In this document: piece by piece, positions 8,504 through 56,936 of the stretch
How positions within the stretch are numbered: the first letter of the stretch is position 1
Layout: the number at the start of each line of letters is the position of its first letter
Source: Spirosoma luteum DSM 19990
GTDB lineage: Bacteria > Bacteroidota > Bacteroidia > Cytophagales > Spirosomataceae
NCBI RefSeq assembly: GCF_000374065.1
Contig: NZ_KB893246.1
Coordinates: 62,001-126,000 of the forward strand
Direction of reading: 5' to 3'
DNA length: 64,000 nt
Position numbers and translations under genes: made by a program
Notes under the pieces: model-generated
Database searches by the model: none
Seen by the model: the letters and a program-made list of their open reading frames with translations, nothing else
Told to the model about the DNA's origin: nothing

Positions 8504-8584
8504 CTTTTATTCCTCTTTCCAATCACCAGTGAAAAGCAGGGTAAAAAACTAAATTTCACTGGTGATTGGAAAGAGGAATAAAAG
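8504..8584 (-). terminator. Hairpin, 31-bp perfect stem
   Basis: Arms 8504-8534 and 8554-8584 are exact reverse complements with a 19-nt loop. The hairpin begins 8 nt past the stop of the leftward gene ending at 8593, which fits a terminator for it. The right arm end is A/T-rich. Confidence 0.7.
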
Positions 8585-19540: not shown

Positions 19541-21292
19541 TCATTTGTCCGCTTTCGGACGAATCGTGTCCGTTTTTGGGGTACGTACTAATCCCTGTTG
19601 GCTCACCTCTGCCAGCACATAGGCCGATAACGTTCGGGAGCGGGTAACCGGATTCAGAAAATCATACGTTAGCTGACTGACGTGGTAATAGGGGAACACG
19701 GCCAGCGTACGGACCGTAAAACCCCGGTTACCAAGCGAATCGGCAAGGTCGGCCGATGTAAATACCTGCCGGGAGCCTGTTCGTAGTTGAGCACTCAAAG
19801 CAGAATCGGCACGGGCATACTGCGTGGGGGCTTTCGCGTAGAACTCATATGACCAGAAACTACCGCCCCCCACACCCGTACCCGGTTCGTACAGAATCGT
19901 TGGGCGGCTGGCGGTAGTCGGCTGTGTATTTGCGTAGTCGGCGGCTGCACTTCCGGCCTGATAGCGTAGAAAAGTAGGGTATAGAAACAAATTCAGGGCA
20001 CCGGCCAGCACCAACATAACCCCAACCATCCGTCCGGTTAACCCCAGCAAATTGTTTTGCCGAAAGAGCAGAAAGGTACCAATAGCGCTAACCAGCACAA
20101 AGGCCAGGGCCAGTTGAAGGTGTTCCGGTTTTACCAGGTTCAGTAGCCAGGCCATTACCGCTACCAGTAACAGCCCGATGATGGTTTGAGCAATAGTCCA
20201 CCGGCGCAGGGCAAGCGATTTCAGGCTGACCAAAAACTGCGCAGCCAGGATGGTGAAGAAGGGGAAAACAATGTTCAGGTAGTGGGGCAATTGAAAACTC
20301 GATAGCGAGAAAAGCGCGAACGTAGCCAGCCCGGAACCGAGCGATACGTACTCAGGACCCGGCTGGTTGAAGAACTGTTTTCGATGCCGGAACAGGTTAG
20401 CCAATGCATTGCCAATACCCGCGTACAGGGGCAGCGACCAGGGAATAAATGCCCAGAGCAGGGTATGGACAAAGAAAAACTTATCACCCTCGCCCTTGAT
20501 TGGACCTGTATTGAAGAATCGCCCAAACTGGCTATCCCAGAAGAAAAAACGAATTCCTGATATGCCCGTTTGGCCAAAGATTACTTTCTCCGGGTGCAAA
20601 TCGAACTGTTGATACAGGCAGTAAATTTCGGGGAGGGTAAAAACGAACGACAGCGCAACAGCTACATACCAGCGTGGTTTCACTAGCTCGCGCCAATGCC
20701 CGGTCAGTATCCAGTGAAAGACCAGCCCCGCGCCAATGGGGATGAGAACAAAAATACCCTTGGTCATCAGGGCACAGCCCGTGAGGAGTGAGCCAGCCAG
20801 CAAATGAAGGCCGCTGTTGGGTGTACGCTTAAACACCCGCCAAAAATGATATACCGCCCCGATAATAAGCGGCATCAGGTACGGCTCTGCCCGAACATCG
20901 CTGTTGGATAAAACACCGTGAAACGCTGTCAATAGCACTAGGGAAGCCACCTGAGCCACTACCTTTGGGTAAACGAGTCGGGAAAAGCGATAGGTGTACA
21001 CCACACTACCCAGGAAAAAAAGCAGAGCCGGAAACTTGTACGCGAAGGTGTTGATACCAAAAATCCGAAAACTTAGAGCCGCAACCCAGAAGGGGAAATG
21101 GGGCTTGTCGAGCCAATCTGTACCCACCGCGTAGAGGTTGACAAAATCACCCGTTTCCGCCATCTGTTTGGCAATGCAGGCGTATAATGCTCCATCAACT
21201 TCCATGATGGGCAGAAATAGGCCCGTCATGTTCAGCAGTACACCAACGGCTACAAGCCCATAAAACCAACGATCAGGGAGAGAATCACTCAT
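19541..21292 (-). CDS. Membrane glycosyltransferase, ArnT/PMT (GT39/83)-like
   Basis: A polytopic protein of ~583 residues with ~11 hydrophobic segments. The first periplasmic loop has EVDGALYACIAKQMAETGDF, where the acidic residues after TM1 match the catalytic loop of ArnT/PMT enzymes, followed by the family-like GTDWLDKPHFPFW. Such enzymes transfer sugars from a lipid-phosphate carrier to glycolipids or proteins at the outer face of the inner membrane. I place the start at the ATG at 21292 (MSDSLPDRWF); the frame stays open to 21415, but that extension is built from the ATGAC/GTCAT repeat array and carries no plausible protein signal. Acceptor unknown. Confidence 0.85.
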   Translation of the reverse strand: MSDSLPDRWFYGLVAVGVLLNMTGLFLPIMEVDGALYACIAKQMAETGDFVNLYAVGTDWLDKPHFPFWVAALSFRIFGINTFAYKFPALLFFLGSVVYTYRFSRLVYPKVVAQVASLVLLTAFHGVLSNSDVRAEPYLMPLIIGAVYHFWRVFKRTPNSGLHLLAGSLLTGCALMTKGIFVLIPIGAGLVFHWILTGHWRELVKPRWYVAVALSFVFTLPEIYCLYQQFDLHPEKVIFGQTGISGIRFFFWDSQFGRFFNTGPIKGEGDKFFFVHTLLWAFIPWSLPLYAGIGNALANLFRHRKQFFNQPGPEYVSLGSGLATFALFSLSSFQLPHYLNIVFPFFTILAAQFLVSLKSLALRRWTIAQTIIGLLLVAVMAWLLNLVKPEHLQLALAFVLVSAIGTFLLFRQNNLLGLTGRMVGVMLVLAGALNLFLYPTFLRYQAGSAAADYANTQPTTASRPTILYEPGTGVGGGSFWSYEFYAKAPTQYARADSALSAQLRTGSRQVFTSADLADSLGNRGFTVRTLAVFPYYHVSQLTYDFLNPVTRSRTLSAYVLAEVSQQGLVRTPKTDTIRPKADK

Positions 21293-21298
21293 TTGGCG

Positions 21299-21432
21299 GT
21301 CATTATGCTTTGCTGTCATAAGGTTGCCATCATACCTCGCTGTCATGACAATCGTGCCCAGTGATAGCGAAGCACAATGACCATTAATGACTATCAGATG
21401 ACCAAAAATGACCACCTAATGACGATAATGAC
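21299..21432. promoter_or_regulatory. Helically phased ATGAC/GTCAT array in divergent promoter region
   Basis: Six direct ATGAC words start at 21377, 21387, 21398, 21408, 21419 and 21428, i.e. every 9-11 bp, one DNA turn. Another lies at 21345 (three turns upstream, inside GTCATGAC), and inverted GTCAT words lie at 21299, 21315 and 21342. One half-site, CTGTCATA at 21313-21320, equals the half-site of the PhoB box. OmpR/PhoB-family regulators bind direct repeats at this spacing. The array lies between the divergent genes at 21292 and 21535. The binding protein is unknown. Confidence 0.55.
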
Positions 21433-21534
21433 CATTCACGACAATTTGAGAATCAAAGTACGGAAGAAAACCGTAATTCGTTGTTGAATCGGGTTGGGTG
21501 TGCAACAAATTCGCCAGTCCGTTATCTTTAGACT

Positions 21535-22950
21535 ATGCAAGATGCCAAACTCTTACTCGTAGATGACGACCCAGACGTGTTGCTGGCAGCCCGGTTGTTG
21601 CTCAAACGGCACGTTGGCTCGGTAGATATTGAAAAAAATCCCGAAAAACTGCCGTTTCTGCTCAACAACAATCGCTACGATGCCATTGTACTCGACATGA
21701 ATTTTCAGCGGGATGTGAGCAGCGGGCGCGAAGGTTTTGCCTGGCTCGACCGGATCCTGGACATCGACCCCAATGCGCGGGTTGTGCTGTTTACGGCCTA
21801 CGGCGATGTAGAAATGGCCGTGCGGGCTATCAAAGCCGGTGCAGTCGATTTTGTGCTGAAACCCTGGCAAAACGATAAGTTTCTGGATACCATTCGCGGG
21901 GCTGTCCGTAAAGGAGAGGAAGATAAAAATCAGATTGAAGCCGACGGGCAGGGGGTATTGGCCCGGAAAACGGGCAAGCAGTCCGGCATTATTGGAGCAG
22001 CCATGCGGCCTATTCTGGATACGGTTGCCCAGGTAGCTCCCACCGATGCCAATGTATTGATTCTGGGCGAAAACGGTACGGGTAAAGACTTGATTGCCCG
22101 CGCTATTCATGACCAGTCGAACCGGCACGACAAACCCTATGTAAGTGTTGACGTGGGTGCATTGACCGAGAGTTTGTTTGAAAGTGAGTTGTTCGGTCAC
22201 GTGAGGGGAGCCTTTACCGATGCCCGCGACGACCGGGCCGGACGCTTTGAAGAAGCTAACGGGGGCACTATTTTTCTGGACGAAATTGGCAACCTGAGCG
22301 CATCACAGCAAGCCAAACTGCTCACGGTGCTGCAACATCGTCAGGTTACGCGTGTTGGCTCGAACAAAGCCCGACCGATTGACGTGCGGCTCATCTGCGC
22401 AACCAATTCCGACATTTCTGAGCGGGTAAACTCCCAGGATGGTCCGGCGGTTCGGTTCCGGCAGGACTTACTCTATCGAATTAACACGATTGAATTCAAC
22501 CTGCCCCCCCTGCGTAGCCGCCCGTCCGACATTGGACCATTGGCTGACCATTTCGTGAAAAAATACGCGAAACAGTATAACCGGCCCGTTTCTGGCCTGA
22601 GTCCGGCATTGCTGGCCGATATGAAGCAATATCAATGGCCGGGCAACGTGCGGGAATTGCAACACGCCATCGAACGAGCCGTTATCCTCGCCCGGCCTGG
22701 TGCGGTCCAGCCGGGGTTGACCCAATCGGGCGAAGCTTCAGGAACCCTGCTGGAACCCAATCATTTTATCTTTAAAAATGGATCGGCAGCGGCATCACCC
22801 GTTAACGAAACGCTGCAACTGGAAGATATGGAGCGTCAATTGATTCAGCAGGCGATGCAGAAACACCGGGGCAGCATCACCGATGTGGCACGGGAACTTG
22901 GCCTGTCGAGGCAGGCACTTTACCGGCGGCTGGAGAAGTTTGGGCTCTAG
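21535..22950 (+). CDS. NtrC-family sigma-54-dependent response regulator
   Basis: A 471-residue regulator with three parts. The receiver domain (residues 1-120) has the acidic pocket VDDDPD and the phospho-acceptor Asp in IVLDMNF (about residue 53). The AAA+ domain (about 150-380) has Walker A GENGTGKD, the sigma-54-contact loop GAFTDA (GAFTGA with one change) and Walker B GTIFLDEIGN. The Fis-type helix-turn-helix at the C-terminus reads GSITDVARELGLSRQALYRR. It should activate sigma-54 promoters when phosphorylated. The likely partner kinase is at 24884-26245. A TATCTTTA box at 21523-21530 would place transcription start almost at the ATG, so the mRNA may be nearly leaderless (inference). 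Confidence 0.93.
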   Translation: MQDAKLLLVDDDPDVLLAARLLLKRHVGSVDIEKNPEKLPFLLNNNRYDAIVLDMNFQRDVSSGREGFAWLDRILDIDPNARVVLFTAYGDVEMAVRAIKAGAVDFVLKPWQNDKFLDTIRGAVRKGEEDKNQIEADGQGVLARKTGKQSGIIGAAMRPILDTVAQVAPTDANVLILGENGTGKDLIARAIHDQSNRHDKPYVSVDVGALTESLFESELFGHVRGAFTDARDDRAGRFEEANGGTIFLDEIGNLSASQQAKLLTVLQHRQVTRVGSNKARPIDVRLICATNSDISERVNSQDGPAVRFRQDLLYRINTIEFNLPPLRSRPSDIGPLADHFVKKYAKQYNRPVSGLSPALLADMKQYQWPGNVRELQHAIERAVILARPGAVQPGLTQSGEASGTLLEPNHFIFKNGSAAASPVNETLQLEDMERQLIQQAMQKHRGSITDVARELGLSRQALYRRLEKFGL

Positions 22951-23904: not shown

Positions 23905-24882
23905 ATGAGCTTATCTGGCACACGTTTGGAAGTTATGCGATTCGTCGGTGAGAAAATCGACGCGTCCATTGATGCGTACCTGAAACCTATTGAAACAAAC
24001 TGGCAACCTACCGATTTCCTACCCGATACAACCAGGGAAACGTTTCTGGACGAGGTAAAGCAATTGCGGGAAAGCACCCGCGAGCTGTCGTACGATTACG
24101 TAGCGGTGCTGGTGGGCGATACGATTACGGAGGAAGCGTTGCCTACCTACGAATCGTGGCTGATGGATATGGAAGGCGTTAATCAGTCAGAACCGAATAG
24201 CTGGACACGCTGGATTCGGAGCTGGACTGCCGAAGAAAACCGGCACGGCGATTTATTGAACAAGTTTTTATACCTGTCGGGGCGGGTGAATATGCGGGCG
24301 ATGGAGGTGTCGACCCAGTACCTGATTGCCGATGGTTTCGATATCGGCACCGGCCGGGACCCCTACCGGAATTTTATTTATACATCCTTTCAGGAGCTGG
24401 CTACCAACGTATCGCACCGCCGTACGGCTACACTGGCCAAGCAGGCTGGCTGTGTGCAGTTGTCCAAAATTTGTGGGGTCATTGCCTCCGACGAAATGCG
24501 CCATGCGAAGGCTTACAAAGGCTTTGTAAGTCAGATTCTCGAAGTTGACCCAACTGGTATGATGCTGGCTTTTGAGGATATGATGCGCAAGAAAATTGTA
24601 ATGCCCGCCCATTTCCTGCGTGAATCCGGCGTAAAAATCAGCGACACATTCAGCCATTTCTCCGATGCCGCTCAGCGTTTGGGGGTGTACACAACAATGG
24701 ATTACATCGAGATTGCAGAGTCTCTGCTGATCGACTGGAACATTGGGTCTGTTAATGACCTCAACGACGCCGGGCAACGCGCCCGCGATTACCTGATGGC
24801 CCTACCCAGCCGGTTGCGCCGGGTAGCCGACCGGACTAAAGTACCAACCCTGGAGTATCCGTTTAGCTGGATTGCTGCTTAA
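23905..24882 (+). CDS. Soluble acyl-ACP desaturase (ferritin-like di-iron)
   Basis: A ~325-residue enzyme of the fatty acid desaturase type 2 family, which inserts a double bond into acyl-ACP with O2 and reduced ferredoxin. Di-iron ligands are visible in the two ExxH helices: EENRHGDLL (about residue 117) and DEMRHAKAY (about residue 204), with an upstream E in ALPTYESW. I chose the ATG at 23905 (MSLSGTRLEV); the frame extends 5 codons to a TTG. The next gene starts 1 nt after its stop, so the kinase gene is probably co-transcribed. With plsC opposite, this suggests control of membrane fluidity. A ferredoxin reductase lies far away at 56945. Confidence 0.92.
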   Translation: MSLSGTRLEVMRFVGEKIDASIDAYLKPIETNWQPTDFLPDTTRETFLDEVKQLRESTRELSYDYVAVLVGDTITEEALPTYESWLMDMEGVNQSEPNSWTRWIRSWTAEENRHGDLLNKFLYLSGRVNMRAMEVSTQYLIADGFDIGTGRDPYRNFIYTSFQELATNVSHRRTATLAKQAGCVQLSKICGVIASDEMRHAKAYKGFVSQILEVDPTGMMLAFEDMMRKKIVMPAHFLRESGVKISDTFSHFSDAAQRLGVYTTMDYIEIAESLLIDWNIGSVNDLNDAGQRARDYLMALPSRLRRVADRTKVPTLEYPFSWIAA

Positions 24883-24883
24883 T

Positions 24884-26245
24884 ATGAATCGGTTTGCTAT
24901 CGGCATCGGCTGGCGTATCGGTAGTATTATCCTTTTGGTCAGCGCCCTTACGTATTATTGGTTACAGGCGGTAAACGGGTTGCTGCTTTTTCCTTTGGCC
25001 GTAGCACTGCTTTCCATCATTATCAGTCTATACCGGTTCGTTACCAGCCTAAACCGTAAACTAACCCGGTTTCTGGAATCGGTACGCTACTCCGACTTTG
25101 CCGTTGCTTTTCGTGCCGACAGTAATCTGGGACCTTCTTTCCACGCACTCAACAGCCAGTTCAACGAGGTACTGGATGCATTTCGGCAGGCACGGGCCGA
25201 GAAAGAAGCGAACCTGCACTATGTAAACACTATTGTACAGCATGTCGGCGTCGGATTATTGACCTTTGATGCAACCGGGCAGGTGGAGTTGGTCAATCAG
25301 TCTGCCCTTCGGTTGCTTGGTATCTACCGGCTCCGCACCCTGAATGATCTTGATGCCACTCATTCAGAGCTGAGTCATCTGTTAAGCTCGGCCAAGACAT
25401 CGTCTACCCCGGTTTCGTATCAGACCGGTACCGATGGTGAATTGTCGGTACGGTGTACATCGGTTCGATTACGCGGGCGTTTAGTCACCGTCGTTTCCCT
25501 GCAAAACATCCGGACAGAACTCCAACAGCGCGAACTGGAAGCCTGGCAAAACCTGACAAAAGTTCTCCGGCATGAGATCATGAATTCTATTACGCCTATC
25601 GTATCGCTGGCTGGCACTATGCGCGACATTGTTGAAATTGATTTGATGGGTGAAGGAGACAAGGAGGAGGGAGTGACGAAAAACCCCACCTTGTTGGCTT
25701 CTTCCCCCCTCGATGATTTACGGGATGCGTTGACAACAATTGAACAGCGGGGCGAGGGTATTATGCGGTTTGTGGATGCGTATCGAAACTTCACCACCAT
25801 TCCCCAGCCCGTTTTTTCCGATGTGCCGGTTGACCCTTTTCTGCGCAAAGTATGCCAGTTAGCGAAGGCCAATGCACCCCGATGCCAGATGTCCGTTCGG
25901 GTTGCCTCACCAAACCTGGTCATCCGGGCCGATGCAGCCCAAATTGAAATGGTATTGCTCAATCTGATCAAGAACGCGGTAGAAAGCCTGGGAGAAGTAG
26001 TGCAACCAACCATTCAGATCGAAGCCGAGTCGGTAGGAGCGCAAGTCATCATTCGGGTTATCGATAATGGGCCGGGCATCGAACCCGAAGCGATGGAGCA
26101 GATTTTTATCCCGTTCTACACCACCAAAAAAACAGGTTCCGGCATCGGCCTGAGTCTGTCGCGCCAGATTATGCAACTCCACAACGGCCAACTCACGGCC
26201 CTTTCTACCCCAGAAGCCGGTAGTACATTTAGCCTCAGTTTCTAG
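24884..26245 (+). CDS. NtrY-like membrane sensor histidine kinase
   Basis: A ~453-residue kinase. Two adjacent N-terminal TM helices with almost no periplasmic loop (SIILLVSALTYYWLQAV and LLLFPLAVALLSIIISL) suggest it senses the membrane itself or a cytosolic cue. A PAS-like domain follows (VQHVGVGLLTFDATGQVELV), then the H-box LRHEIMNSITPI (His about residue 230), the N-box NLIKNAVES, and the G-boxes DNGPGIEPE and GSGIGLSLS. Start chosen at the ATG 1 nt after the desaturase stop; a TTG four codons upstream is less likely. It is the natural partner of the NtrC-type regulator at 21535, though plsC and the desaturase lie between them. Confidence 0.9.
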   Translation: MNRFAIGIGWRIGSIILLVSALTYYWLQAVNGLLLFPLAVALLSIIISLYRFVTSLNRKLTRFLESVRYSDFAVAFRADSNLGPSFHALNSQFNEVLDAFRQARAEKEANLHYVNTIVQHVGVGLLTFDATGQVELVNQSALRLLGIYRLRTLNDLDATHSELSHLLSSAKTSSTPVSYQTGTDGELSVRCTSVRLRGRLVTVVSLQNIRTELQQRELEAWQNLTKVLRHEIMNSITPIVSLAGTMRDIVEIDLMGEGDKEEGVTKNPTLLASSPLDDLRDALTTIEQRGEGIMRFVDAYRNFTTIPQPVFSDVPVDPFLRKVCQLAKANAPRCQMSVRVASPNLVIRADAAQIEMVLLNLIKNAVESLGEVVQPTIQIEAESVGAQVIIRVIDNGPGIEPEAMEQIFIPFYTTKKTGSGIGLSLSRQIMQLHNGQLTALSTPEAGSTFSLSF

Positions 26246-28892: not shown

Positions 28893-28914
28893 TTGTTTCT
28901 GGTTTTCGGTTTAT

Positions 28915-28992
28915 GGTTTACGGTATTTGGTTTACGGTTGGCTGACGCATGCTTGTACGCGTCAGCCAACCGTAAACCAAATACCGTAAACC
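28915..28992. repeat. REP-like palindrome, 34-bp perfect stem (copy 1)
   Basis: Arms 28915-28948 and 28959-28992 are exact reverse complements with a 10-nt loop. The right arm ends at the base before the stop codon triplet of the response-regulator gene (28993). The inner core CGGTTGGCTGACGC and outer GGTTTACGGTAT recur in the palindrome at 46840-46907. The flank to the left repeats GGTTTATGG/GGTTTTCGG, so the unit looks locally amplified. It may terminate the regulator transcript. Confidence 0.8.
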
Positions 28993-29691
28993 TCAAACGA
29001 TCAATTTAAATCCTTCGCCGTGCACATTCACTAACTGAACATTCGGGTCTTCGCGAAGGTACTTGCGTAGCTTGGTCACGTATACGTCCATGCTTCGGGC
29101 GTTGAAATACGAGTCGTCCCCCCAAACCATTTTCAGGGCAAAACTACGACTGACGGGCTGATTGAGGTTCTGTGCCAGCAATTTTAATAACTCGGATTCT
29201 TTGCTGGTTAGTTTCTGAGGGGGGACGTCGGCACCCGACTCAGCACGTCTGGAGAGAAGTTGATGGGGATAATCGAATGAGAGCGAGCCAATCTGATAGG
29301 TAGTCTGCTCTACTATATCGGCCGTGCGCTGGTACCGACGCAGGATAGCCTGAATCCGCAGCAACAACTCCTCCATGCTGAAAGGCTTCGTGATATAATC
29401 ATCGGCACCAGCCTTGAAGCCCTGAATGGTGTCTTCTTTCATCGACTTGGCTGTCAGGAAAATAATAGGGACATCGCGGTTACCCATCCTCACTTCTTTG
29501 GCAAGAGTGAAACCGTCTTTTTTCGGCATCATCACATCAAAGAGACACAGGTCATACTCACCCGCCATAAATAATTCCAGCCCCTTATTGCCATCAGTGG
29601 CACGGTCGGTCTGGTAGCCTTTCATAGTCAGGTATTCCTGAACCAGTAGCCCCAGATTGGGGTCATCTTCAACGAGTAGTACGGTGGGCAT
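28993..29691 (-). CDS. OmpR/PhoB-family response regulator
   Basis: A 232-residue regulator. The receiver has the acidic pair LVEDDPN, phospho-acceptor Asp in LCLFDVMMPKKDG (about residue 52), the conserved Thr/Lys in FLTAKS and DYITKPF. The winged-helix DNA-binding domain (about residues 130-230) has LTSKESELLKLLAQN and VDVYVTKLRKYLRED-like helices. It lies just after the kinase gene at 29751 and is its clear partner. Family members bind direct repeats of 10-11 bp; such repeats lie at 31780-31795 upstream of the kinase. Confidence 0.94.
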   Translation of the reverse strand: MPTVLLVEDDPNLGLLVQEYLTMKGYQTDRATDGNKGLELFMAGEYDLCLFDVMMPKKDGFTLAKEVRMGNRDVPIIFLTAKSMKEDTIQGFKAGADDYITKPFSMEELLLRIQAILRRYQRTADIVEQTTYQIGSLSFDYPHQLLSRRAESGADVPPQKLTSKESELLKLLAQNLNQPVSRSFALKMVWGDDSYFNARSMDVYVTKLRKYLREDPNVQLVNVHGEGFKLIV

Positions 29692-29695
29692 AAGT

Positions 29696-29770
29696 GTGAA
29701 AGAGCGAAAGAACGAAAGAACGAAAGAGTGGCTTATGTGGCATCGCTCTTTTACTCTTTCGCTCTTTCAC
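29696..29770. repeat. Inverted repeat overlapping the kinase stop codon
   Basis: Arms 29696-29711 (GTGAAAGAGCGAAAGA) and 29755-29770 are perfect reverse complements. The right arm codes the last residues of the kinase (GERAKE), while the left arm reaches within 5 nt of the regulator's start. The left arm continues as a short tandem repeat (ACGAAAG x2), and GTGGC lies twice in the loop. A hairpin here would lie between kinase and regulator in the mRNA and could lower read-through or affect initiation. Confidence 0.6.
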
Positions 29771-33622: not shown

Positions 33623-33691
33623 CGTGTAATACACTGGTTATGACAAATAAACTACTGACGTTCAAATTTGTCATAACCAGTGTATTACACG
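33623..33691. repeat. 26-bp perfect inverted repeat in a divergent gene gap
   Basis: Arms 33623-33648 and 33666-33691 are exact reverse complements with a 17-nt loop. Genes start on both sides (leftward 33594, rightward 33880), so this one is not at a gene end. It is upstream of both genes and would form a hairpin in the rhodanese leader or act as a DNA element. Confidence 0.7.
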
Positions 33692-42301: not shown

Positions 42302-42307
42302 GGCGTT

Positions 42308-42363
42308 ATGAATTATAAATGATGAATGCTCTTTTTTTTGGTCATTCATCATTTATAATTCAT
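42308..42363 (+). terminator. Hairpin after sodA, 21-bp stem
   Basis: Arms 42308-42328 and 42343-42363 are perfect reverse complements around a T-rich 14-nt loop, 6 nt after the sodA stop. Both arms are AT-rich repeats of ATGAAT/ATTCAT, and a further partial copy (AATTCATCAT) follows. Confidence 0.7.
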
Positions 42364-42373
42364 AATTCATCAT

Positions 42374-46825: not shown

Positions 46826-46839
46826 AATCAAAAGTTTTG

Positions 46840-46907
46840 GGTTTACGGTATCCGGTTGGCTGACGCATAAGGTATATTGGCGCGTCAGCCAACCGGATAC
46901 CGTAACC
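46840..46907. repeat. REP-like palindrome, 24-bp perfect core stem (copy 2)
   Basis: Arms 46843-46866 and 46882-46905 are exact reverse complements with a 15-nt loop, and the pairing continues with a one-base bulge to 46840/46907. The inner CGGTTGGCTGACGC and outer GGTTTACGGTAT are shared with the palindrome at 28915-28992. As there, one arm ends right at a stop codon (46909). Confidence 0.8.
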
Positions 46908-46908
46908 T

Positions 46909-47721
46909 CTATACAGTCACCTCTTTGGCCGATTGGATTTGTGCTTTCCAGCCCTGAGGTTCGTCTTTTTCGGCTGGCTTGGCCCAAGGGTCGTAAAAGG
47001 GTAGAATAGCCACCCAGCGCCCGGCGGGATCATCCCAGCTAAACCGGTCGGCAAAACTCGATGGGCTAACCCAGTGCGGCAAATCGTACCGGAACAGAAT
47101 CAGATCGCCCATGTCCTGATACCCTTCCGTTTCAACAATATGATCGTTGATAACGTAGCCCGTACCACCCGATGAGTAGTCCTTTCCGTACTGATTCAGG
47201 GCTAGAATAGTCCCTACTTTTTGCGGGTTGAGCGGGTGCCAGTGCCGCCCAAAAAAGCTGCCGCCCAGTGGGTAATGCGTCACCTGCGGATGGAAATAGG
47301 GTTGCCCTTTCCGGATACCGTATTCTTCGTTATTGCCGGTCAGGCTATTCCAAAAATTACGCATCGGCTGGAATACCTGCATCAGCGTCTGCTGGGCTGG
47401 CTCTTCCAGGTCAAGGATAGCATCGAATGTGTGGTCGTGGAACAACTGCGGAGCCTGCTGAATTTTAGCAATGTGCAGCCGTTGTTTGTGCTGGTTGTTG
47501 TCGAACGGATCGGGGGCTTCGGCCAGGGGTGTTTTAGCTGCCCAGGTATGGGTAGCCGTAATCACACTACGCAAGGTTTCTTCCGGAATCCCGGTTTTGA
47601 TGATGACGATGTTCGGCTCGTTCACCAGTTTCATTACCTCATCGTACGGAATTTCCGGTATAATCCGGCCATCCTTAAATTCGGCATCAACTTTTATCAG
47701 ATATTTTGCTACTTCTTTCAT
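46909..47721 (-). CDS. Putative Fe(II)/2-oxoglutarate oxygenase-like protein in glycan cluster
   Basis: A 270-residue soluble protein. The middle and end resemble a double-stranded beta-helix oxygenase: FFGRHWHPLNPQKVG (possible metal His), SGGTGYVINDHIVETEGYQD, DLILFRYDLPHWVSP (second His) and DPAGRWVAILPFYDPW (Arg for the co-substrate). The usual HxD/E pair reads HWH, so the metal site is uncertain. The first ~130 residues are not recognised. It lies between the beta-propeller and GT2 genes on one strand and may modify a sugar or lipid precursor. Family assignment is tentative. Confidence 0.5.
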   Translation of the reverse strand: MKEVAKYLIKVDAEFKDGRIIPEIPYDEVMKLVNEPNIVIIKTGIPEETLRSVITATHTWAAKTPLAEAPDPFDNNQHKQRLHIAKIQQAPQLFHDHTFDAILDLEEPAQQTLMQVFQPMRNFWNSLTGNNEEYGIRKGQPYFHPQVTHYPLGGSFFGRHWHPLNPQKVGTILALNQYGKDYSSGGTGYVINDHIVETEGYQDMGDLILFRYDLPHWVSPSSFADRFSWDDPAGRWVAILPFYDPWAKPAEKDEPQGWKAQIQSAKEVTV

Positions 47722-56852: not shown

Positions 56853-56936
56853 TTTTTGTCATGGCTCCGCAGTAGAGAATCTCAGGCTTGACGAATACGC
56901 AGCGTTGAGATTCCCCCTGCGGAGCCATGACAAAAA
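56853..56936. terminator. Bidirectional hairpin, 20-bp outer and 8-bp inner stem
   Basis: Arms 56853-56872 and 56917-56936 are exact reverse complements ending in T5/A5. An inner stem GAATCTCA (56877-56884)/TGAGATTC (56906-56913) lies within. The hairpin separates convergent genes ending at 56852 and 56945. Confidence 0.8.

Follow-up and report, generated by a model that had tools for sequence, protein, structure and literature searches.

The phased ATGAC array ahead of an NtrC-type regulator gene of Spirosoma luteum DSM 19990 is one member of a family of dispersed intergenic palindromes of about 100 bp, and similar arrays are found across Bacteroidota. Tentatively, we read these elements as palindromic phased arrays placed at gene junctions and recognized by a putative DNA-binding factor. 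The array was located in a stretch of 64,000 nucleotides (hereafter the window), in the 242-bp gap at 21293–21534. Ten copies of the pentamer or its complement had been claimed here and all ten were found where expected, seven of them on the + strand (21345, 21377, 21387, 21398, 21408, 21419, and 21428) and three on the − strand (Table 1). The spacing given for the six direct copies that begin at 21377 proved exact, and the letters of the PhoB-half-site-like CTGTCATA are present at 21313. The longest phased run in the gap was 6, compared with 2 at most in 5000 dinucleotide shuffles of the same 242 bp (a run of 2 was reached in 26 shuffles and a run of 3 in none), and the copies on both strands numbered 10 against a shuffle mean of 1.0 and a maximum of 6. 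No other pentamer gave a run above 3 in the 64-kb window. The observation in the earlier note was right and even stronger than claimed there; the point missing from it is that the array belongs to a palindrome.

Table 1. Features in and around the array (window positions).
Feature	Position	Strand	Remarks
Glycosyltransferase (PMT_2, PF13231)	19541..21292	-	Start at the ATG of MSDSLPDRW
ATGAC palindromic array element	21299..21432	.	3 inverted + 7 direct copies; counts, shuffles
Left arm, inverted GTCAT copies	21299..21346	-	Copies at 21299, 21315, 21342; steps of 16 and 27 bp
Right arm, six phased AATGAC-type units	21377..21432	+	Steps of 10, 11, 10, 11, and 9 bp
Inverted-repeat halves	21298..21318 and 21362..21382	.	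86% complementary
CAAAGTA (TACTTTG on -), candidate -7 element of glycosyltransferase promoter	21454..21460	-	By eye
TGCAAC...TATCTTTA, candidate promoter of NtrC-type gene, outside the element	21501..21534	+	Predicted, by eye
NtrC-type response regulator (Response_reg, Sigma54_activat, HTH_8)	21535..22950	+	Domain matches
Histidine kinase	24872..26245	+	Domain match

The regulator encoded to the right of the array comprises receiver, sigma-54, and Fis-type HTH domains, and the histidine kinase is, from its position, its probable partner. On the left, the glycosyltransferase frame of S. luteum has no stop codon as far upstream as a GTG at 21415, and translation of 21293–21415 as part of that protein was the outcome that the earlier note had held against its own proposal. 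Such an extension was rejected. Of the 30 congener loci, 27 yielded the frame, and in those relatives that have an array (L002, L005, L006, L008, L010, L011, and L012) it extends just 0 to about 20 codons further upstream than the conserved start; the start was placed at the ATG at 21292. By eye, letters resembling CAAAGTA recur at the majority of the 30 congener loci, and CAAAGTA/TACTTTG may be a −7 element. If TACTTTG serves the glycosyltransferase in this way, the array would fall in the leader of that gene, which is probably where the window element sits. The region of the candidate NtrC-type promoter is likewise similar among congeners by eye.

The architecture of the family follows the formula (GTCATTNNNN)n - centre - (NNNNAATGAC)m, with a consensus unit AATGACNAYN(N) in 86 de-duplicated elements from Spirosoma and Dyadobacter-type loci, of which three were one-sided and one irregular; some elements contain a 14-bp unit variant with GCGMAGC after the motif. 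The order of the arms, GTCATT copies, centre, and AATGAC copies, was the same in all 125 elements distinct by centre and reversed in none. Steps of 10 bp (574) and 11 bp (120) between consecutive copies predominated, in counts for which one arm was usually seeded by a 9–11 bp pattern and the other was unseeded. By our own arithmetic, the pair lags of 20 (156), 21 (89), and 22 bp (7) roughly match an independent choice of 10 or 11 and do not support a strict 10/11 alternation, and the mean unit spacing is about 10.2 bp. Since the choice looks random around this mean, the earlier view that the copies face the same side of the helix is supported as about one turn per copy rather than as exact helical tuning. 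The distance between the arms was weakly phased near 10.5 bp (Rayleigh p ~0.004, n = 77, for Spirosoma and Dyadobacter-type loci; p = 0.009, n = 122, with all loci; values uncorrected for the 13–15 periods tried). The phase was absent from 41 elements of other collections (p ~0.2 at 10.5 bp, with 8 bp fitting better), and decayed central units could be another source of it.

The number of elements varies widely among genomes. The triple pattern ATGACN{4,6}ATGACN{4,6}ATGAC gave 17 matches in the S. luteum genome compared with 1 for the reversed control pattern, and these 17 correspond to nine separate intergenic places, the array described here included, and one place within a called ORF (L059). 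Among 36 Spirosoma genomes, 20 had at least one match. The highest counts were those of G014 (108), S. spitsbergense (G025; 100), and S. telluris (G016; 92), followed by G028 (40), G004 (37), G021 (26), S. luteum, G009 (12), G015 (11), G002 (7), and G034 (5), whereas the remaining 25 genomes had 0–2 and the controls gave 0–1 in each of the 36. No match was found in G032 or G024, and relatives with similar NtrC-type proteins had unlike counts (108 in G014, 5 in G034, and 0 in G032). When the count was extended to 390 genomes of the order, high numbers occurred within the family, including two more genera, g26 (up to 102), which we infer to be Dyadobacter, and g25 (up to 20). Genomes of other families had 0–2 matches, with reversed controls of up to 6, except G174 (45) and G142 (4), whose listed matches are clustered in tandem on a single contig in each genome.

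A wider search of 84,980 named genomes, for four AATGAC units spaced by exactly 10 bp, returned at least 119 stretches. Record titles assign 91 of the 119 listed to Bacteroidota (Dyadobacter, Spirosoma, Fibrella, Bacteroidales, Saprospiraceae, and Chitinophagales among them, several MAGs being repeated many times), 3 to Melioribacteraceae, and 16 to other groups, and leave 9 unnamed. Inverted phased copies lay on the expected side in 43 of the 119 listed stretches and on the opposite side in none; some of the others are plain 10-bp tandem repeats, which need not be the same thing as the arrays. Units like AATGACNAYN were seen in other families and classes. Large arrays with a mainly 10-bp period were noted in a second genus, in Dyadobacter sp. 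CY343 (L192; 5 inverted and 13 direct copies) and at L193 of G107 (10 and 9 copies), as were near-pure decamer expansions of the same core (L251:7366-7476, L358:2688-2748; Ignatzschineria cameli and a viral contig), those of Ignatzschineria cameli and the viral contig being one-sided in the stretches shown.

The divergent setting of the window element is an exception within the family. In the context set (82 of the 86 elements, with both strands present), the flanking ORFs were co-directional for 67 elements, convergent for 10, and divergent for 5, compared with 343, 84, and 85, respectively, of 512 baseline gaps from 800 kb of two genomes; ORFs were mechanical longest-frame calls of at least 80 aa for the elements and 100 aa for the baseline. 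Elements take up nearly the whole gap, with median lengths of 114.5 bp for the gap and 102 bp for the element; element edges were a median of 5–6 bp from the ORFs, and called ORFs overlapped over half of the element in 5 of 82 cases. An array of translation starts and stops, conceivable because AATGAC contains ATG and TGA, was disfavoured on account of the 10 elements between convergent genes. The ten proteins encoded beside eight other S. luteum elements have unrelated functions (glyoxalase, esterase-like, acetolactate synthase small subunit, threonine dehydratase, deaminase, molybdopterin enzyme, MFS, DUF1549, HlyD, and AcrB type), and none of the ten is a phosphate-uptake protein.

These data bear on the proposal with which the array had been introduced, namely that a PhoB/OmpR-type regulator bound to the direct repeats would control the divergent glycosyltransferase and NtrC-type genes. 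PhoB/OmpR-type operators are direct repeats near one helical turn to which winged-helix response regulators bind, and the Pho box consists of CTGTCAT-type half-sites repeated at 11 bp and is situated upstream of phosphate-regulated genes. The ATGAC arrays resemble the Pho box in their direct repeats near one turn and their GTCAT core, TGTCAT is like a Pho half-site, and at least one OmpR-type regulator is encoded in the window, about 7.6 kb from the array (five window proteins scanned). They differ from it in their mostly 10-bp steps, their two inverted arms, and their numerous sites in co-directional and convergent gaps, and T precedes GTCAT in 35% of 677 units, making TGTCAT one of several variants. 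The check suggested at the outset, for phasing conserved upstream of the orthologous genes in relatives, showed that, of 30 orthologous gaps, S. luteum included, only 7 have three or more + strand copies in phase; 2 gaps had two phased + copies and 21 had one or none (congener loci L031-L036 and other-genus loci L037-L045 were left out of the count). The gap was also aligned for four species pairs. The nearest of the 58 other genomes compared is that of S. spitsbergense, with 95% identity in the NtrC-type protein. Blocks on either side of the array (CAAAGTAC... and TGCAAC...TATCTTT) are alike, by eye, in most gaps with or without it. As the array is missing from most gaps despite similar flanks, it is not a constant part of the promoter region. 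Together with the spread of the family beside unrelated metabolic, transport, and other genes, mainly away from divergent promoters, this poor conservation led us to reject a local PhoB/OmpR operator as the main reading, and we consider such control of the gene pair very improbable. What stands of the comparison is that the repeats are non-random, lie about one turn apart, and keep their motif, as fits a sequence-specific DNA-binding factor.

As judged from alignments of orthologous elements, the motif appears constrained while the spacers drift. In nine orthologous pairs, four of which represent one locus, 614 of 643 motif bases were identical compared with 999 of 1289 spacer bases, and 112 of 129 motif copies were intact compared with 412 of 1069 control 5-mers. 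Two more pairs, both of S. spitsbergense and G014 and poorly aligned, gave 10/15 versus 3/119 and 12/15 versus 13/88, so that the eleven pairs pooled to 134/159 motif copies and 428/1276 control pentamers, a contrast that is inflated because the pairs were picked with an array in both species. The contrast was strong at L403:10588 (15/16 versus 9/66) and at the window locus compared with S. spitsbergense (16/18 versus 25/141), weaker in the G021/G004 pair (6/9 copies intact), and lacking in the closest pair, L054 (12/13 versus 76/87). Since the motif is kept and the intervening letters change, something probably reads the motif. Under the reading that we tentatively prefer, AATGAC units 10–11 bp apart run outward in both directions from a short centre, and a putative sequence-specific DNA-binding protein would recognize each unit on approximately the same helix face and load as two back-to-back rows. 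The loaded rows may mark or separate adjacent transcription units chromosome-wide rather than act as a single promoter switch, in which case the place of the window element between a divergent pair would be happenstance.

The same elements might act in RNA. Under this alternative, a serious rival that we regard as possible but not probable, a REP-like element would be transcribed with its operon and would fold, at the ends of mRNAs or between cistrons, into a hairpin that tunes mRNA decay or translation, the motif being kept since the arms must pair or since an RNA-binding protein reads it. The prevalence of co-directional gaps and scarcity of divergent ones are in its favour, and REPs are reported in PMC3733652 to lie chiefly between unidirectional and convergent ORFs. 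When the 50 of 86 elements that met the size rules were folded against versions with swapped spacers, z was below −1 in 26 and below −2 in 15; the latter, clear hairpins are a feature needless under a DNA-only model and count against it. In relatives the gap is often filled by another palindrome, as though structure outweighed sequence. However, 19 of the 50 elements folded no better than with swapped spacers and so gain nothing from their own in-register ones, which indicates that spacer pairing is not required; ortholog pairs retain the motif while the spacers diverge, and a hairpin needs neither a 10–11 bp spacing nor a fixed motif. We read the constraint as lying on the motif itself, and the complementarity of the arms as a trace of origin or a second role. 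No known structured RNA family accounts for the element, the only Rfam matches in the window at gathering thresholds being two tRNAs.

Mobilization by a RAYT, as in REP families, was rejected as an explanation for these dispersed intergenic palindromes, and we give it almost no credence. REPs and REPINs in the strict sense are built of a short palindrome tagged GTAG or CGTC, and copies of the element flank the associated RAYT gene. A search of 46 genomes found Y1_Tnp genes in 40, and two of these genes are close to arrays by coordinates, in S. spitsbergense (gene C230:15953, 1.0 kb from the array C230:14884-14920) and in S. luteum (C13:216375, 4.3 kb). Against this, none of 20 Y1_Tnp loci, IS200-type transposases among them, held an ATGAC cluster within flanks of up to 1.5 kb; three of four loci inspected closely carry other repeat families (e.g. 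GTCCCTACGGGAC and GTCGCGTAGCGAC), and G015, with 11 array matches, has no Y1_Tnp match, which points against RAYT as a general mover. The repeats at the Y1_Tnp loci of G025 (L215), G014 (L209), and G192 (L217) are their own, with palindromic cores GTCCCTACGGGAC, GTCGCGTAGCGAC, and ATCGCGTAGCGAT. A phage origin was also rejected, as the four-unit 10-bp pattern matches just four stretches of IMG/VR.

Centromere iterons of the parC/ParR type form two clusters of short direct repeats of about 11 bp around a centre. The ATGAC arrays have the same two clusters of short repeats on either side of a centre but differ in being many per chromosome and in having inverted arms. In the broad sense they are REP-like, with many copies, intergenic positions, inverted symmetry, and few divergent gaps. 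According to PMC3733652, the REP/BIME/REPIN group is likewise dispersed, intergenic, palindromic, patchy by species, and mainly found in co-directional and convergent gaps, although REPs are 20–40 bp in length whereas the ATGAC elements are about 100 bp and absent at the 20 Y1_Tnp loci. Their arms also differ from those of REPs, as each repeats a conserved hexamer at intervals of about one helical turn and in a variable number of copies. The tandem repeats of Bacillus described in PMC8161180, of constant length and variable sequence, have units of 52 or 20–21 nt; there too the repeat length appears to be held while the sequence varies between families, but the ATGAC units are of 10–11 nt, palindromic, and fixed in motif. 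The arrays are classed as a dispersed-palindrome kind that belongs neither to the RAYT/REP nor to the Pho-box family. No description of palindromic arrays in Spirosoma or Dyadobacter was found among the papers listed in searches of the open-licence PMC literature, and the main text of PMC3733652 and PMC12306157 does not mention these genera.

Orthologous gaps in relatives hold the same family, a different palindrome, or nothing. After L191:7567, for example, S. spitsbergense and G014 carry an ATGAC element, the gap of S. luteum is occupied by a palindrome of the GGTTTAC type and that of G032 by a similar one, and the gap of G009 holds 7–10 bp. In three regions (L404 and L405 left out as queries), gaps whose reference had an ATGAC element contained ATGAC in 6 relatives, other inverted repeats in 10, and none in 9; gaps without a repeat in the reference contained inverted repeats in 6 and none in 30, and those with another inverted repeat in the reference contained inverted repeats in 8 and none in 6. 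Re-use of the same gap slots (10/19 versus 6/36; Fisher p = 0.011, ignoring shared ancestry) is suggestive only. The inverted-repeat finder misses imperfect palindromes, two of which (L402:2749 in G016 and L191:4008 in S. luteum) were scored as none and are visible by eye. A gap apparently gains an element in one piece, in many cases as a near-perfect palindrome, and the element is lost or replaced later.

Such turnover could be neutral or selfish, with inverted duplication and slippage making palindromes that spread, decay, and are replaced in gaps that merely tolerate them. Inverted repeats are abundant in G014 and G032, with 53 and 67 intergenic ones, respectively, in 400 kb each, or about one per 6–8 kb (64 and 75 at all positions, and 0 in three shuffles of each). 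Many of their arms consist of 7–10 bp units of other sequence (GTTTGAG, AAGGAGG, AGTGGAGTA, CACAGAGA, ATCCTGTTA, AATGGAT, and others; L362-L401), and the ATGAC family is therefore one among several. This abundance, the patchy counts of 0 to 108 within a genus, the orthologous gaps that are empty or otherwise filled, and the recent-looking pure 10-bp expansions in distant bacteria are all as neutral turnover would have it. Nevertheless, we judge it a serious rival but an unlikely account, given that motif retention far exceeds spacer retention and that AATGACNAYN-like units recur in other families and classes; the fixed order of the arms (125 to 0) also speaks against it, though a single founder element would yield the same.

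Bacterial intergenic space is usually taken to consist of promoters, terminators, or decayed DNA. Here, phased inverted motif arrays occupy many junctions, patchily among close relatives, and the same junctions elsewhere often have another palindrome. A speculative extension, to which we attach rather low confidence, is that Bacteroidota harbour an undescribed class of repeat-built palindromes, in which junctions keep a palindrome while the family is swapped (ATGAC, GGTTTAC, GAAAGAG, GTCAGG, and others), and in which ATGAC would be read by a dedicated factor in two outward rows as a genome-wide boundary or organizing mark. The arrays offer a testable case of either a multi-site DNA-binding system unknown until now or a REP-like class that is new and turns over fast, and serve as a warning that an operator-like array before a regulator gene may have no tie to that gene.

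Several other palindromes were noted along the way. In the window, GGTTTAC-unit palindromes ending in GGTTGGCTGACGC / GCGTCAGCCAACC lie at 28895-28998 and 46834-46914, and it is a palindrome of the GGTTTAC type that fills the S. luteum gap where S. spitsbergense carries an ATGAC element. A GAAAGAAC/GAAAGAGC-unit palindrome (29696-29770) directly precedes the start of a gene for an OmpR-type response regulator (29017-29691, minus strand), a long inverted repeat of ATTCATA-like 7-bp units occurs at 42306-42365, and further long inverted repeats are present at 8504-8584, 33623-33691, and 56853-56936. Two dispersed families of about 120 bp matching both strands were seen at L402:6598-6723 (many copies, mainly in G034) and L402:11503-11622 (in G032, G034, and G024), with most copies of both 76–94% identical among the matches listed.
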